Origin: Micromonospora foliorum
GTDB lineage: Bacteria > Actinomycetota > Actinomycetes > Mycobacteriales > Micromonosporaceae
Length of the DNA stretch: 64,000 nt
Direction: 5' to 3'
Assembly (NCBI RefSeq): GCF_022229015.1
Contig: NZ_JAKKFF010000243.1
Coordinates: 1-64,000 of the forward strand
Shown here piece by piece: positions 3,759 through 13,812 of the stretch. Position numbers and translations under genes: made by a program. Each line of letters starts with the position of its first letter. Position 1 is the stretch's first letter. The notes under the pieces are model-generated. The model made no database searches. It saw only the letters and a program-made list of their open reading frames with translations, and was not told the DNA's origin.

Positions 3759-5123
3759 TCAGTTCCCGGCACTGGTGAAGTTCAGGACGTCGATCCGGCT
3801 GCCGCCCTGGTGCGGTGCGAAGACGCTGGCGATGTTGTTGGACTTCAGCAGGCGGTGGTCGAGCAGCGGATCGGAGGTGAAGGTCGCCGTGGACCGGTAA
3901 CGCACGGCCCAGTCCGACCAGACCGACGCTCGGGACGCGGTCGCGACCTGCAACACGCCCGTGTTCGAGGCGGCGCTGACCACGAACAGGTTGTCCTGGG
4001 AATCGACGCCGATGTCGCCGCGGCTGACGCCCGCCTGGTAGCCGAGGATCCGCTGGCGCCACTGGCCGGTCGCCGCCTCACGCCAGTAGTGGACGAGCAC
4101 GGCGCTGGTGCGGGCGCGGGTGAAGACGGCGTCACTGGGCGCCGACGGCGGCAGGTGGGAGGCCAGGACGTGTACGTTGCCCGCCGAGTCGACGGTCTGC
4201 GATTCCTGATTCATCAGGCCGCGGTTCTGTCCGATGGTCCAGAACCGTGCCGCGGCGCTGGTCGTCGAGATCGGGCTGGAGTCGGCGGTGCCGATCAGCG
4301 CACCCGAACCACCGCGCCACGTTCGGCCCCGGTCCGTGCTGTACGCGTAGTAGAGGTCGTGGTTGGTGCTCGCGTCCATGGTCTCCCGCACGGTCCAGGT
4401 CATGTGCAGCACGCCCTGTCCGTCGTACTGGAACCCGAACAGGTAGGCATTGTTGCCGAGCGTGGTGCCATTCATGATCTTGCCGACGAAACTCCACACA
4501 CCAGCCCGATATTCGAACAGGACCTGGTTGCCGTTCCCACTCTCCCCCGTACGGATCGTCAGTTGCAGACTGCCGTCGGGCATGGTGGTGAACTGCGGAT
4601 AGGTCATGACCGCCATGTCGCGTCCGGCGAGGCTGCTCTGCACGGCCCCGAAGATGGCCGGTGACCAGGTGGCGGTGTCCGGTGAGGTGGCGATGCCGGC
4701 CACCGACTTGCGGTAGCGGAAACGCTGGGAATGCATGTCGAACGACAGGTGGATGCTTCCGTCCTCGTGCGAGAGCCCAAGGCTGATCACGTTGTGTGAA
4801 TCGGTGGTGGTGGTGCGGTAGTCCGTCAGGCGGATGGTCTGCCACGTGCCGTTCGTCGGACGCCGGGAGACGTTGACGTAGCCCTGCTCGTCCCAGAACG
4901 CCGCGTACTGCCATCGGCGGTGCGAGACGATGCCGTCCTGCTGGAAGGACTCGCCGTTCATCAGGCCCGTGTAGCTCTCCGCGGTCCGGCCCTGGGTGGT
5001 CAGCGTGGTCGTGGTCGGCGCATTCACCGTCGGCGACGCCGCCGAGGCCGGTGAGCTGGAGGTGGCGACCAGCAGGAACCCGACCAGCGCCGCACCCGCC
5101 CTGTAACGTTTCAAGACCGTCAT
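3759..5123 (-). CDS. Secreted BNR_4-type protein, probable polysaccharide-active enzyme
   Basis: A 454-residue exported protein. It has a clear signal peptide with a KRYR n-region, a hydrophobic core and a PASAAS cleavage site near residue 29. The mature part looks like a seven-bladed propeller of the BNR_4 family. It contains the family's histidine-rich core DSHNVISLGLSHEDG (His110, His119), then SIHLSFDMHSQ (His125, His131), and repeated S/T-x-D-x-G-x-T-W-like Asp boxes such as STDRGRTW. BNR_4 proteins include ulvan and rhamnogalacturonan lyases and related glycan-active enzymes, so degradation of an external uronic-acid or rhamnose polysaccharide is plausible. The substrate is not readable. 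The gene is monocistronic, ended by the hairpin at 3703-3740. Confidence 0.75.
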   Translation of the reverse strand: MTVLKRYRAGAALVGFLLVATSSSPASAASPTVNAPTTTTLTTQGRTAESYTGLMNGESFQQDGIVSHRRWQYAAFWDEQGYVNVSRRPTNGTWQTIRLTDYRTTTTDSHNVISLGLSHEDGSIHLSFDMHSQRFRYRKSVAGIATSPDTATWSPAIFGAVQSSLAGRDMAVMTYPQFTTMPDGSLQLTIRTGESGNGNQVLFEYRAGVWSFVGKIMNGTTLGNNAYLFGFQYDGQGVLHMTWTVRETMDASTNHDLYYAYSTDRGRTWRGGSGALIGTADSSPISTTSAAARFWTIGQNRGLMNQESQTVDSAGNVHVLASHLPPSAPSDAVFTRARTSAVLVHYWREAATGQWRQRILGYQAGVSRGDIGVDSQDNLFVVSAASNTGVLQVATASRASVWSDWAVRYRSTATFTSDPLLDHRLLKSNNIASVFAPHQGGSRIDVLNFTSAGN

Positions 5124-5240: not shown

Positions 5241-5738
5241 TCAGGAAGTGCAGAACGACGCCGGCTCGGTGAGGCCGAGGTCCGCACAGTTCCATCCCGG
5301 TCCCTGATCGTGGTACCGCCAACCCGTGCCGGCTGTGTAATGGAACAGGTAGATGACGCCGCCGGCGGCCGGACGCTCCACGTCTGCCGCCGCCCAAGCC
5401 TCGACGCACTCCACTGGCCTGGAAGCGAAGGCCCAGGCCGCCGGCAGCTCGACAAGGGTCCCGAGGGTCGTCGTCGACGGACAGTCGGGACTCCGGGGTC
5501 CGTCACTGGTGCGGGTGGACGCGGGTGGCGTCGGAGGGTCGGGCCGGTGGCTGGCGGCCAGGGCGACCGTACCGCCGACGGCGAACACCACCGCCGTGGC
5601 CGCGGCGCCGGTGGCGAGCGCTATCCGCCGTTGCGACTGCCGCGACCTGCGCAGGGACCGCTCGTACATGTCGGCGGTGCCGCCGTGCTCACTCAGATCG
5701 GACATGGCCTGACGCAGCGGCCCGAGGTTGTCGGTCAT
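5241..5738 (-). CDS. Membrane protein with extracellular four-cysteine domain; probable anti-sigma factor
   Basis: A 165-residue single-pass protein. Residues 1-38 form a short charged cytoplasmic tail without the zinc anti-sigma HxxxCxxC motif. Residues 39-63 are a transmembrane helix, 64-85 a Pro/Ser/Thr linker, and 86-165 a compact extracellular domain. That domain carries four cysteines (86, ~111, ~151, 163) in the pattern CPSTTTL, ECVEAW, NCADLGL and SFC, plus IYLFHYTAGTGW. The same domain occurs twice in the lipoprotein at 6381. Its ATG overlaps the last base of the sigma-factor stop (TGATG), so the two are translationally coupled. Coupling to a SigE-type sigma and the topology suggest a non-zinc anti-sigma factor or sensor; this is inference. 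A longer upstream reading would run into the sigma gene and is rejected. Confidence 0.75.
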   Translation of the reverse strand: MTDNLGPLRQAMSDLSEHGGTADMYERSLRRSRQSQRRIALATGAAATAVVFAVGGTVALAASHRPDPPTPPASTRTSDGPRSPDCPSTTTLGTLVELPAAWAFASRPVECVEAWAAADVERPAAGGVIYLFHYTAGTGWRYHDQGPGWNCADLGLTEPASFCTS

Positions 5739-6256
5739 CAGGCCTCCTCCATGACGGCCGAGAGCAGCTCGGGCGCTATCTCCCGCATGCGGGCCAGTGC
5801 CTTGCTGGTCTGACTCTTGATCGTGCCGACCGAGCATTGCAGCAGAGCCGCCGTCTCGGCCTCGCTGCGATCCTCGAAGAAGCGCGCCACCAGCACGGCC
5901 CGTTGCCGCTGGGTGAGTTGGGCGAGCGCCTGGTGCAGGGCAAGCTTGAGGTCGGTACGGCGAGCATGGTCACTGCCCGGCTGAACCACATCGGCCAGTT
6001 CCCCGGGCAGGGACTCGGCTACCCTACGGCGCCGCCACCAGCTCACATGCTGGTGGTACATGGCGGTGCGGGTGTACGCCTCGAAGTGCCCCGGATCATC
6101 CAGCCGGCGCCGGCCCCGATGAGTGCGGGCCAGCGCATCCTGCACCAGGTCCTCGGCGAGGTGCCGGTCACCGGTCAGCAGGAACGCCGTCCGCAACAAC
6201 GCTGGCGAGCGGGTCCGAACGAACGCACAGAAAAGATCGTCTATGGAGTCCGCCAT
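5738..6256 (-). CDS. RNA polymerase sigma factor, SigE family (sigma-70 group 4)
   Basis: A 172-residue two-domain sigma factor. Region 2 covers about residues 10-80, with LLRTAFLLTGDRHLAEDLVQ, ALARTHRGRR and then the YTRTAMYHQHVSWWRRRR segment typical of the actinobacterial SigE subfamily. Region 4 covers about residues 105-165, with LTQRQRAVLVARFFEDRSE and the helix-turn-helix LLQCSVGTIKSQTSKALARM. ATG 6256 follows a GGAGGGG site. It overlaps the downstream membrane protein by one base and lies 124 bp after the lipoprotein gene on the same strand. Factors of this subfamily are usually controlled by a small membrane partner encoded next to them, which fits the neighbour. Confidence 0.92.
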   Translation of the reverse strand: MADSIDDLFCAFVRTRSPALLRTAFLLTGDRHLAEDLVQDALARTHRGRRRLDDPGHFEAYTRTAMYHQHVSWWRRRRVAESLPGELADVVQPGSDHARRTDLKLALHQALAQLTQRQRAVLVARFFEDRSEAETAALLQCSVGTIKSQTSKALARMREIAPELLSAVMEEA

Positions 6257-6380
6257 GCCCCGCTCGTCCCCTCCACGTACCGCAAAGTCCTTCGAGCAGC
6301 GGCGGCGTCGATGCGGCCGGTTGTTTGTGGTGCACAACGTAGCGGGAGTGCGCCACAGCGCGCGACCGCGGTCACCCCGG

Positions 6381-7076
6381 TCAGTAGATGCAGAACGGCG
6401 CCTCAGTGAGGCCGAGATCCTTGCAGTCGTATCCGCTGCCGTCGCCGTAGTACTTCCAACCCGTGGGGGCCTTGTAGTGGAACAGGTAGACGCCGTCACC
6501 AGCGGTCGGGCCTTGCGGATCGGCTCCCGCCCAGTCCTTGACACACTGGACACTGCCGAACGTCCAGCCCTTAGGAAGCTCGACAAGGCTCTCGAGAGTC
6601 TTCGCCGAAGGGCACTTGGCACTCGTGGCCGTGCTGTTCGCCGGCTTCGGCGCCGTCTCCACCGATTCCGAGACGCAGAACGGCGCCGGCTCGCTGAGAC
6701 CGAGATCCTTGCAGTCCCAATCGCTGCCCTGGTCGTAGTACTTCCAGCCCGTGCCGGCCACGTAGTGGAACAGGTAGACACCGTCATCGACGGTCGGGCC
6801 CTGCGGATCCGCCGTCGCCCAGCCCTTGAAACACTTCACCTCCGCAAGAGACCAGCCCTTCGGCAGCTCGACCAGGGTCTGCAGGGTCGTCACCGAGGGA
6901 CAGTCGGCAACCCCGGCCGCCGGGGTAGCCACCGCGGGCGACGCACTGACGACGCCAGTGGCCGACGTCGGAGCGGATGCGGTTGGGCTAGGACCAGGTG
7001 CCGGCGTGGAGCCGCAGGCCGAAAGTGCGAACAGGACGGCGGCAACGGGCAGCAGCAGAAGTGGACGTGCAGACAT
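6381..7076 (-). CDS. Lipoprotein with two copies of a four-cysteine domain
   Basis: A 231-residue lipoprotein. The signal peptide ends in the lipobox LSAC (Cys21), then a Thr/Ala/Pro linker. Two tandem domains follow at residues 59-136 and 155-231. Each begins CPS, continues with the block LVELPKGW, then a C...W pair, ADPQGPT, GVYLFHY, TGWKYY, DCKDLGL, and ends FC. Two of the three copies in the locus differ mainly in short loops, and spacing of the four Cys is conserved, suggesting two disulfides. The third copy is the extracellular part of the membrane protein at 5241. I do not recognise the domain as a named family. ATG 7076 is preferred over an in-frame start at 7109 because AGGGGTCCAGGA precedes it and it places the signal peptide at the N-terminus. 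It lies 5' of the sigma gene on the same strand, separated by 124 bp, so it may share its transcript or be its target. Confidence 0.8.
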   Translation of the reverse strand: MSARPLLLLPVAAVLFALSACGSTPAPGPSPTASAPTSATGVVSASPAVATPAAGVADCPSVTTLQTLVELPKGWSLAEVKCFKGWATADPQGPTVDDGVYLFHYVAGTGWKYYDQGSDWDCKDLGLSEPAPFCVSESVETAPKPANSTATSAKCPSAKTLESLVELPKGWTFGSVQCVKDWAGADPQGPTAGDGVYLFHYKAPTGWKYYGDGSGYDCKDLGLTEAPFCIY

Positions 7077-7333
7077 TCCTGGACCCCTATGGATCGTGGC
7101 GGTCGTCACTTACATCCGGGTACATGCGATCCACTGCCCGAAGGTTGCCGTCAACCAGAAACTTTCTCCAAAATCTTTCGGCGAACCCGGTCGGACGGTG
7201 CGGGCGGCGGGCCGGGAAGCGTCCCGAACCGCTGTCATCCGGCGTTGGCCGCTCAACGATCCCGGTCTCGGGCCTGCCGCCGCACCACGCCGTGGTCCGC
7301 TTGGACGTCGCGGATGGGCCGGGCGTCGAGCCG

Positions 7334-13163: not shown

Positions 13164-13652
13164 TCACCCGGCCGGTTGGATACGCAGGACGGCGCCAGTG
13201 CCGCTGATCTTGACCACCTCAAAGCGCATGGCGTCGTTTATGGTCGCGACGGTCCCCGCCTGGCAGCTCATTTCGACACCGCCGCCGCCTTGCGACGACA
13301 CGCCGCCGCCACCGGAACAGCCCGAAACGCTGTAACCGGACCCGGTCAGAGGCGCGACCATCTCGACCGCGGCGGCGGTGATCCCTGTTACCTCGATCGG
13401 CCCGAGGCCATACCTCTCCGGCACGGCCACGACGTCGCCCACGGCGACCTCGATCTGGCACGTCCCGTCAGCGCACGGCCCGCTCGGTGACGGTGACGGT
13501 GTGGCCGCCTGGGTTGGAGTCGATGCGCCGTCGGGTGCCGACGACTCGGTGCCGGACCCAGCCGGAGAATCCGCCGAACATGACGTCAGGACAGCGAGCA
13601 CACCAACGGCAACGACCGCCGTGGGCGACATCCTCCGCATCACGGTAGCCAT
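13164..13652 (-). CDS. Putative lipoprotein, unknown function
   Basis: A 162-residue exported lipoprotein. The N-terminus is MATVMRRMSPTAVVAVGVLA followed by the lipobox LTSC. A Ser/Pro/Thr-rich linker follows, then a ~100-residue domain with four cysteines (CADGTC, SGC, MSC), a poly-Gly stretch (GCSGGGG, QGGGG) and beta-rich blocks (IEVAVGDVVAVP). I do not recognise the family. Three in-frame ATGs lie within 22 nt and none has an ideal ribosome site, so the start could be 13640 or 13631. The 86-bp convergent gap to the GNAT gene holds only a loose long-range repeat. Confidence 0.6.
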   Translation of the reverse strand: MATVMRRMSPTAVVAVGVLAVLTSCSADSPAGSGTESSAPDGASTPTQAATPSPSPSGPCADGTCQIEVAVGDVVAVPERYGLGPIEVTGITAAAVEMVAPLTGSGYSVSGCSGGGGVSSQGGGGVEMSCQAGTVATINDAMRFEVVKISGTGAVLRIQPAG

Positions 13653-13812
13653 GAGATCGAGGCTACCGGCAAGGCCAGGTGCGCGGTCAGTCGCCGACCG
13701 CTGACGAATCGTGAACCGCCGGCCCTGTGCCTTGTCGGGTGCCGACGCTGGCACCCCAGCCGGCCCCCGCAGCACCAGCCCGCAGAGGAACTCCGGGTTG
13801 CCGGCCGCCGCC

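Follow-up and report, generated by a model that had tools for sequence, protein, structure and literature searches.

We have found a conserved three-gene unit in which a SigE-family sigma factor gene stands between a gene for a lipoprotein and a gene for a single-pass membrane protein, a putative anti-sigma factor, and in which both of these proteins carry copies of the same four-cysteine domain. It was analysed in a stretch of 64,000 nucleotides from Micromonospora foliorum (NCBI RefSeq assembly GCF_022229015.1, contig NZ_JAKKFF010000243.1, positions 1 to 64,000), hereafter called the window, where the lipoprotein, sigma factor and membrane-protein genes follow one another on the minus strand from 7076 down to 5241. 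We read the locus as an autoregulated surface-sensing unit in which a single ligand is bound both by the anti-sigma factor and by the main product, and we put the probability of this reading at about one half. The lipoprotein is probably switched on by the sigma factor, judging from a promoter-like motif upstream of its gene, and the domain common to sensor and product suggests that the same thing is recognised by both outside the cell.

A preliminary description of the window, made from its letters alone, had placed three genes and three domain copies at this locus, and all were found where it had put them (Table 1). The sigma factor scores 167.2 bits against TIGR02983 (cut-off 141.55) and is a SigE-family member, as had been said; the stop of its gene and the start of the membrane-protein gene overlap by 1 base.

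Conservation of the three-gene unit

Stretches around 72 domain matches were fetched, which makes 73 with the window. The order lipoprotein, sigma factor, tail with domain is present in 30 of the 73. This survey for domain copies beside SigE-family genes had been proposed in the preliminary description, and the domain that it saw in both the sigma factor's partner and the lipoprotein is thus kept as a unit in 30 loci. The lipoproteins of these loci have one domain copy (20 loci) or two (10 loci); a lipobox was detected by script in 29 of them and by eye in the remaining one (L099; loci and genomes are given by our working numbers, L and G). Among the 30 paired loci, L091 alone has a membrane protein with five cysteines; in the other 29 there are four. 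The stop of the sigma factor gene overlaps the start of the membrane-protein gene in all 31 loci examined. Genes flanking the unit are not widely common: judging by position, the most frequent frame (7 loci) runs antisense across the start of the lipoprotein gene, and the next ones that look genuine occur in 4–5 loci.

In L136 (genome G319) the sigma factor and the tail occur with weak domains and no upstream lipoprotein, and a domain copy lies in a separate downstream frame. The remaining 42 of the 73 stretches hold solo or decayed copies with no sigma-tail pair within about 4 kb; two of these stretches contain a SigE-like gene (L115) or a weak SigE trace (L124). Counting L136 and the variants L215–L217 described below, sigma factor, tail and domain occur together in 34 loci (31 + L215–L217), with a domain lipoprotein directly upstream in 30.

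Five decayed loci (L139, L142, L143, L144 and L214) have domain or tail fragments, and no sigma factor gene was found in these stretches. The promoter-like motif described below is exact in L142 and has two mismatches in L214.

The membrane protein as a putative anti-sigma factor

Among the 30 membrane proteins (L136 left out) the cytoplasmic tail is the best conserved part, with a mean pairwise identity of 0.74; the domain reaches 0.54, the membrane segment 0.53 and the linker 0.40. In the large genome searches only the best 15–21 first-look candidates per genome were scored, so that all counts from them are lower bounds. With a profile of the tail, 350 genomes of the family Micromonosporaceae gave at least 32 matches that scored no less than 72 bits. 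They comprise all 30 paired loci together with L136 and, in G003, a truncated remnant. This line was chosen after the drop from 72.9 to 59.5 bits had been seen. Gene order, gene overlap and the conservation of the tail lead us to infer that the membrane protein is an anti-sigma factor. A zinc-type (ZAS) anti-sigma motif is absent, since the 38-residue tail of the window protein has no cysteine.

Below this line lie related systems. In L215–L217 (genus group g64) the sigma factor and the tail come with one clear domain (47.7–58.5 bits), possibly a second and very weak one (5.7–12.8 bits), and no linked lipoprotein. The SigE-family loci L218–L221 are like the window locus in tail (27.9–36.2 bits) and sigma factor (195–239 bits) and differ in their large ectodomains, which are of beta-propeller type where the window protein has the four-cysteine domain: of the three scanned (L218, L220 and L221), PD40 propeller repeats were above the cut-off in L218 and L220 and below it in L221.

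The window genome has 13 TIGR02983 genes over the cut-off. By eye, the next gene encodes, in nine of the 12 others, a protein that has a membrane segment and a short basic tail (L148–L152, L154–L156 and L158, on G000 contigs C578, C329, C51, C519, C67, C556, C345, C26 and C386); the ectodomain in L156 has a LytR-CpsA-Psr-type look, also by eye.

The four-cysteine domain

The domain is about 79 residues long. In a whole-genome search, copies 2 and 3 of the window matched copy 1 with 71% and 60% identity (E 2.7e-34 and 3.1e-29), and each of the three has four cysteines, as the preliminary description had noted. The 6.85-Mb genome of the window yielded no further copy, also with a more diverse profile. 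The earlier view that the domain belongs to no named family stands as far as the databases go: searched alone against Pfam (16, then 18 members) and NCBIfam (18), it matched no family over its cut-off, and a PDB sequence search with the domain profile gave nothing at E 10. The weak Pfam and NCBIfam matches each concern one domain member at E 0.0073 or weaker, and the window member has none. Neither the locus nor the domain was found described in the open-licence literature, judged from titles and the beginnings of abstracts.

Structure prediction of the single domain, also proposed earlier, gave a confident best model (mean pLDDT 91.9, pTM 0.81) from 18 sequences, those of the window and its named relatives; of five single-domain models two exceeded 90 pLDDT and three lay at 57–73. 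The modelled fold is a short helix followed by a four-strand meander. The full membrane-protein model is poor (pLDDT 62.2; residues 1–6 and 11–80 below 50), with the domain at about 79–90. As for a known fold, the best matches were unconvincing: E 0.75 by Foldseek against the PDB, and by VIA-align Z 5.0 for a PH-like protein and 4.9 for a designed cystatin fold. The missing convincing structural match does not make the fold new.

At E 0.001 the domain profile matched at least 62 of the 350 Micromonosporaceae genomes. In class-wide draws, profile A1 (E 0.001) matched at least four of 345 genomes and the more diverse profile A4 (E 1e-4) at least three of 296, two of them in each case from the genus of the window. 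No match was found in a search of plasmids. Among the matches found, the domain appears almost confined to Micromonosporaceae; distant relatives exist more widely, because L146, from another family of the same order, has an LppP/LprE domain (PF14041) followed by a weak four-cysteine copy (positions 3977–4999). Neither the lipoprotein nor the membrane protein of the window matched PF14041 in a Pfam scan. By eye, adjoining genes that each encode one diverged copy behind a lipoprotein-like start occur in L135 and L137 (three each) and L140 (two).

A promoter-like motif upstream of the lipoprotein gene

The motif CGGCAACC-N15-GCATGTACC precedes the lipoprotein gene exactly in 25 of the 30 loci; the CGGCAACC block is invariant in all 30. 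The mismatches are one in L100, L101 and L102, two in L103 and four in L098. In the window genome, the site before the lipoprotein gene is the only one with up to two mismatches. At three mismatches there are 75 more sites; a reversed control gave 112 at up to three. Strict conservation and near-uniqueness point to a promoter that would be read by the sigma factor.

A relaxed pattern gave one exact and five one-mismatch sites in the window genome, against eight control hits. Another relaxed pattern, GCRTGTRC, was applied to 16 of the 34 genomes that have the module or one of its variants. Sixteen exact sites were found in 13 of them (none in G278, G330 and G033): 11 before a module lipoprotein, one (G365) before a lipoprotein with the domain that is not linked to a sigma locus, and one (G319) just before the sigma factor gene. 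Of the other three, that in G045 precedes a BNR_4 gene and that in G364 a NarL-like regulator gene, and that in G351 has no clear target. The site in G364 (L260, contig C47, about 146478) is the second exact one of that genome, and the gene behind it is for a NarL/LuxR-like response regulator.

In G365 the motif lies 81 bp before the unlinked domain lipoprotein gene, with one mismatch to the strict form, and is the only exact GCRTGTRC-pattern site of this 12-Mb genome. Because its sigma locus is the variant L216, which has no linked lipoprotein, the link would be in trans. Related sites with 3–4 mismatches lie near the sigma factor start in L215–L217 and L222. Upstream of nine of the 49 solo copies there is a NNGCAACC-N15 site with 3–4 mismatches; this is only suggestive, because four or fewer mismatches were also reached in 24 of 600 stretches of 400 bases drawn at random from the solo loci (some of them probably the same sites) and because the solo copies are related to one another. 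Taken together, the evidence that places the lipoprotein in the regulon of the sigma factor is circumstantial.

Exchange of domain copies between the two genes

Within a locus, lipoprotein and anti-sigma domains are 46–60% identical in the 17 window-type loci (L076–L091 and the window) and 51–96% in the 13 others, with the highest values in L098 (96%), L095 (86%), L101 (77%) and L102 (72%). The domain DNA of L098 is 98% identical over 246 bases, and the near-identity extends into the linker and stops at the stop codon. A first tree was made with 13 of the 122 copies (fragments and distant sequences) dropped; for the second, the 49 solo copies and the three L136 copies were left out. The second tree, of 70 copies and 83 columns, leaves many forks unresolved; it requires seven changes of location, and a grouping of all anti-sigma copies in a single clade is rejected (p 6.6e-5). 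Duplication or conversion between the two genes has thus been repeated. Such exchange and the near-identity in L098 are expected if both copies must hold one specificity, and selection for a common ligand may be what drives it; neutral gene conversion would produce them too.

A BNR_4 gene as a possible second target

The gene 3' of the membrane-protein gene in the window encodes a BNR_4 protein (PF15892, 281.4 bits, cut-off 27.3) whose closest PDB chains are those of an L-rhamnose-alpha-1,4-D-glucuronate lyase (E 5.9e-54). Matches to it at E 1e-60 or better occur in seven of 160 genomes of the genus, including that of the window. In G045 and G316 the orthologues (93–94%) lie far from the module, at 4.05 Mb on one contig and on another contig, respectively, and the exact motif stands 135 (G045) and 128 (G316) bases before the start of the BNR_4 match. 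The window gene lacks a motif of its own (the best site has 5 mismatches), but it follows the operon. Each of the three close orthologues is in this way linked to the sigma factor, by position in the window and by the motif in G045 and G316.

A plant-type glycan is a reasonable guess for the ligand, given the lyase-like target. Some named hosts, such as M. lupini, are plant-associated, which is a weak pointer to the ligand. Where the motif stands before the BNR_4 gene (L290 and L291), the leader behind it looks by eye like that of the lipoprotein gene, as though the BNR_4 gene had taken over the promoter of the latter.

Proposed mechanism and alternatives

To our knowledge, no signal is known for the short-tailed membrane partners that accompany most of the 13 SigE-family genes of the window genome. 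The present locus is a compact case, with few predicted targets, a conserved motif, an unnamed domain and a candidate ligand class from the lyase-like target. In the mechanism that we propose, the membrane protein would hold the sigma factor through its 38-residue cytoplasmic tail. A ligand, extracellular or attached to the wall, would be bound by the outer domain of this protein, and this would free the sigma factor, by conformational change or proteolysis. The free sigma factor would read the promoter before the lipoprotein gene and so produce the lipoprotein and, behind it, more sigma and anti-sigma factor; in a few strains it would also make the secreted rhamnose-glucuronate-lyase-like protein. 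The lipoprotein, which displays the sensor domain once or twice more, would bind the same ligand, and its role would be to capture this ligand or else to dampen signalling. The ligand may be a plant-type glycan, as the BNR_4 target hints. If this is true, sensor and product share one recognition domain, and exchange from gene to gene is visible in sequence. We consider rather doubtful the stronger version, in which these domains are small disulfide-bonded glycan receptors of a new family, one copy serving as sensor on the anti-sigma factor and one or two being carried by the main product, with the two binding sites held alike through repeated gene conversion. The system would then be an actinobacterial counterpart of RsgI-type glycan sensing, directed at plant arabinogalactan-like sugars.

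Several observations weigh against a surface-sensing unit with a common ligand. Four of the 34 sigma-tail-domain loci have no upstream lipoprotein. The motif was derived from the same 30 loci in which it was counted, so that the genome-wide and in-trans searches are the independent tests; in L098 it has four mismatches, and the GCRTGTRC pattern at up to one mismatch gave 96 sites in the 16 genomes against 144 in the control (not split by mismatch), for which reason the one-mismatch sites mean little. Four distant BNR_4 relatives (40–63%) lack the motif (best sites 3–5 mismatches), and the BNR_4 gene stands beside the module in one of the 30 loci, the link resting on three genomes. No carbohydrate-binding family in Pfam matched the domain. 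Finally, since the partners are only 46–60% identical in the 17 window-type loci, their specificity may have diverged.

The alternative that survives best, and which we still think unlikely, is a homotypic feedback: the lipoprotein domains would bind the anti-sigma domain and keep it in the holding state, and a stress at the surface that draws the lipoprotein away would free the sigma factor. The domains of the two proteins are close in sequence, PupR and PupB are described as like folds in contact (PMC7186176), and in L215–L217, with no linked lipoprotein, the anti-sigma factor has one clear and maybe a second, very weak domain. The solo domain proteins suggest, however, that the domain has a ligand of its own, and a partner identity of only 46–60% in the 17 window-type loci also speaks against this reading. 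The preliminary description had left the choice between homotypic binding and competition for one ligand; the latter fits somewhat better, because domain proteins occur with no sigma-tail pair within about 4 kb.

It is quite improbable, in our view, that the domain plays no part in sensing and serves generally for structure or wall attachment, the locus being an ordinary member of the SigE array and the kinship of the copies a product of local duplication and gene conversion. The many TIGR02983 members of the window genome, most of them with a short-basic-tail membrane partner by eye, would fit this, and so would the near-identical tract of L098, which runs into the linker as under neutral conversion; the conservation of the unit in 30 loci without widely common flanking genes, and a motif that precedes the lipoprotein gene also in trans, speak against it. 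Least probable of all is that the membrane protein acts as an activator, or is simply a surface protein expressed together with the sigma factor, and that control of the sigma factor is transcriptional, like that of SigE in Streptomyces coelicolor: the tail has no cysteine and hence no zinc-type motif, and the SigE-CseABC system is described with a lipoprotein and no anti-sigma factor (PMC6767563), but here the gene overlap and the best conserved tail argue for an anti-sigma factor, no two-component pair was seen by eye among the open reading frames (ORFs) near the locus, and the motif would make the locus autoregulated, unlike the S. coelicolor sigE promoter, which in the cited account is no SigE target.

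Comparison with known systems

The proposed unit shares its logic with the SigI/RsgI systems. In Clostridium thermocellum the anti-sigma factor RsgI6 has a GH10 module, a type that also occurs in xylanases of the same regulon, such as the SigI6 targets Xyn10Z and Xyn10Y (PMC4711584). The domain here stands in the ectodomain of the membrane-bound putative anti-sigma factor and in a lipoprotein behind the motif, which would bring it under the sigma factor; an outer module of a kind also present in secreted regulon proteins, an autoregulated sigma factor and secreted glycan-acting targets would be common to both systems, as far as the cited account of SigI/RsgI describes them. The differences are that the window sigma factor belongs to TIGR02983, that its partner has a tail of 38 residues in place of the RsgI-N region of about 165 (PMC4711584), that the outer domain is no known carbohydrate-binding module, and that the likely main product is a lipoprotein made mostly of that domain.

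In FecR-type cell-surface signalling, PupR and PupB share the STN fold (PMC7186176), so that an anti-sigma regulator and a surface partner with homologous folds are found there too. Here the partner is a lipoprotein, and the partner copies are up to 96% identical in protein (L098). The sigE-cseABC locus of S. coelicolor, whose SigE has been placed in group ECF39 (PMC8999054), resembles the window locus at the level of genes, with a SigE-family sigma factor gene beside a lipoprotein gene that may tune signalling; two-component control is described there (PMC6767563), and none was seen by eye near the window locus.

The window unit shares logic with these systems, but not the sigma family of SigI/RsgI, the partner type of PupR/PupB or the control of SigE-CseABC. 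The preliminary description had taken a fold common to an anti-sigma factor and its surface partner to be new; PupR/PupB (PMC7186176) and the GH10 module of RsgI6 (PMC4711584), as described in these sources, are precedents. The promoter-like motif, the intergenic inverted repeat and the BNR_4 gene behind the membrane-protein gene go beyond that description; sharing of modules between an anti-sigma factor and its partner or products was already known.

Other features of the locus

Table 1. Positions of the genes and sequence features of the locus in the window
Feature	Position	Strand	Remarks
Lipoprotein	6381..7076	minus	231 aa; signal peptide, lipobox LSAC; two tandem domain copies
SigE-family sigma factor	5738..6256	minus	172 aa; TIGR02983 SigE-fam_strep, 167.2 bits
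Single-pass membrane protein, putative anti-sigma factor	5241..5738	minus	165 aa
Four-cysteine domain copy 1 (lipoprotein)	6669..6905	minus	profile search; model pLDDT 91.9
Four-cysteine domain copy 2 (lipoprotein)	6384..6617	minus	profile search
Four-cysteine domain copy 3 (membrane-protein ectodomain)	5244..5486	minus	profile search
Cytoplasmic tail, 38 aa	5625..5738	minus	best conserved part of the membrane protein; profile search
Transmembrane segment	5553..5624	minus	assigned by eye
Promoter-like motif CGGCAACC-N15-GCATGTACC	7119..7150	minus	first base 74 bp before lipoprotein start
Intergenic inverted repeat, lipoprotein/sigma factor gap	6324..6358	minus	window arm folds at -13.7 kcal/mol
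BNR_4 protein, signal-peptide-like start (by eye)	3759..5123	minus	PF15892; 3' of the membrane-protein gene, likely regulon member

The inverted repeat between the lipoprotein and sigma factor genes is strong in the window-type loci, with 222 of 238 pair cells standard over the 17 loci, and partly degraded in the window. Two-sided changes (C-G to T-A) were seen at one pair only, in two of the 17 sequences, and no run of Ts follows the repeat by eye. The repeat may lower read-through into the sigma factor gene as an RNA attenuator; a DNA operator is an equally possible role.

The membrane protein of the window has no Pfam match. A SpaA_4 match in the lipoprotein (19.4 bits, below the cut-off of 27.3) covers the linker together with the beginning of copy 2; as an identity for the domain it was rejected, with only one of 16 single domains matching, at E 0.2. 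A further lipoprotein-like ORF with a long Ser/Pro/Thr-rich linker was noticed by eye at 13164–13775 (minus strand) and was not picked up by the genome domain searches. Upstream of the locus lie, by eye, an SDR-type and an XRE-type gene; the BNR_4 gene lies downstream.
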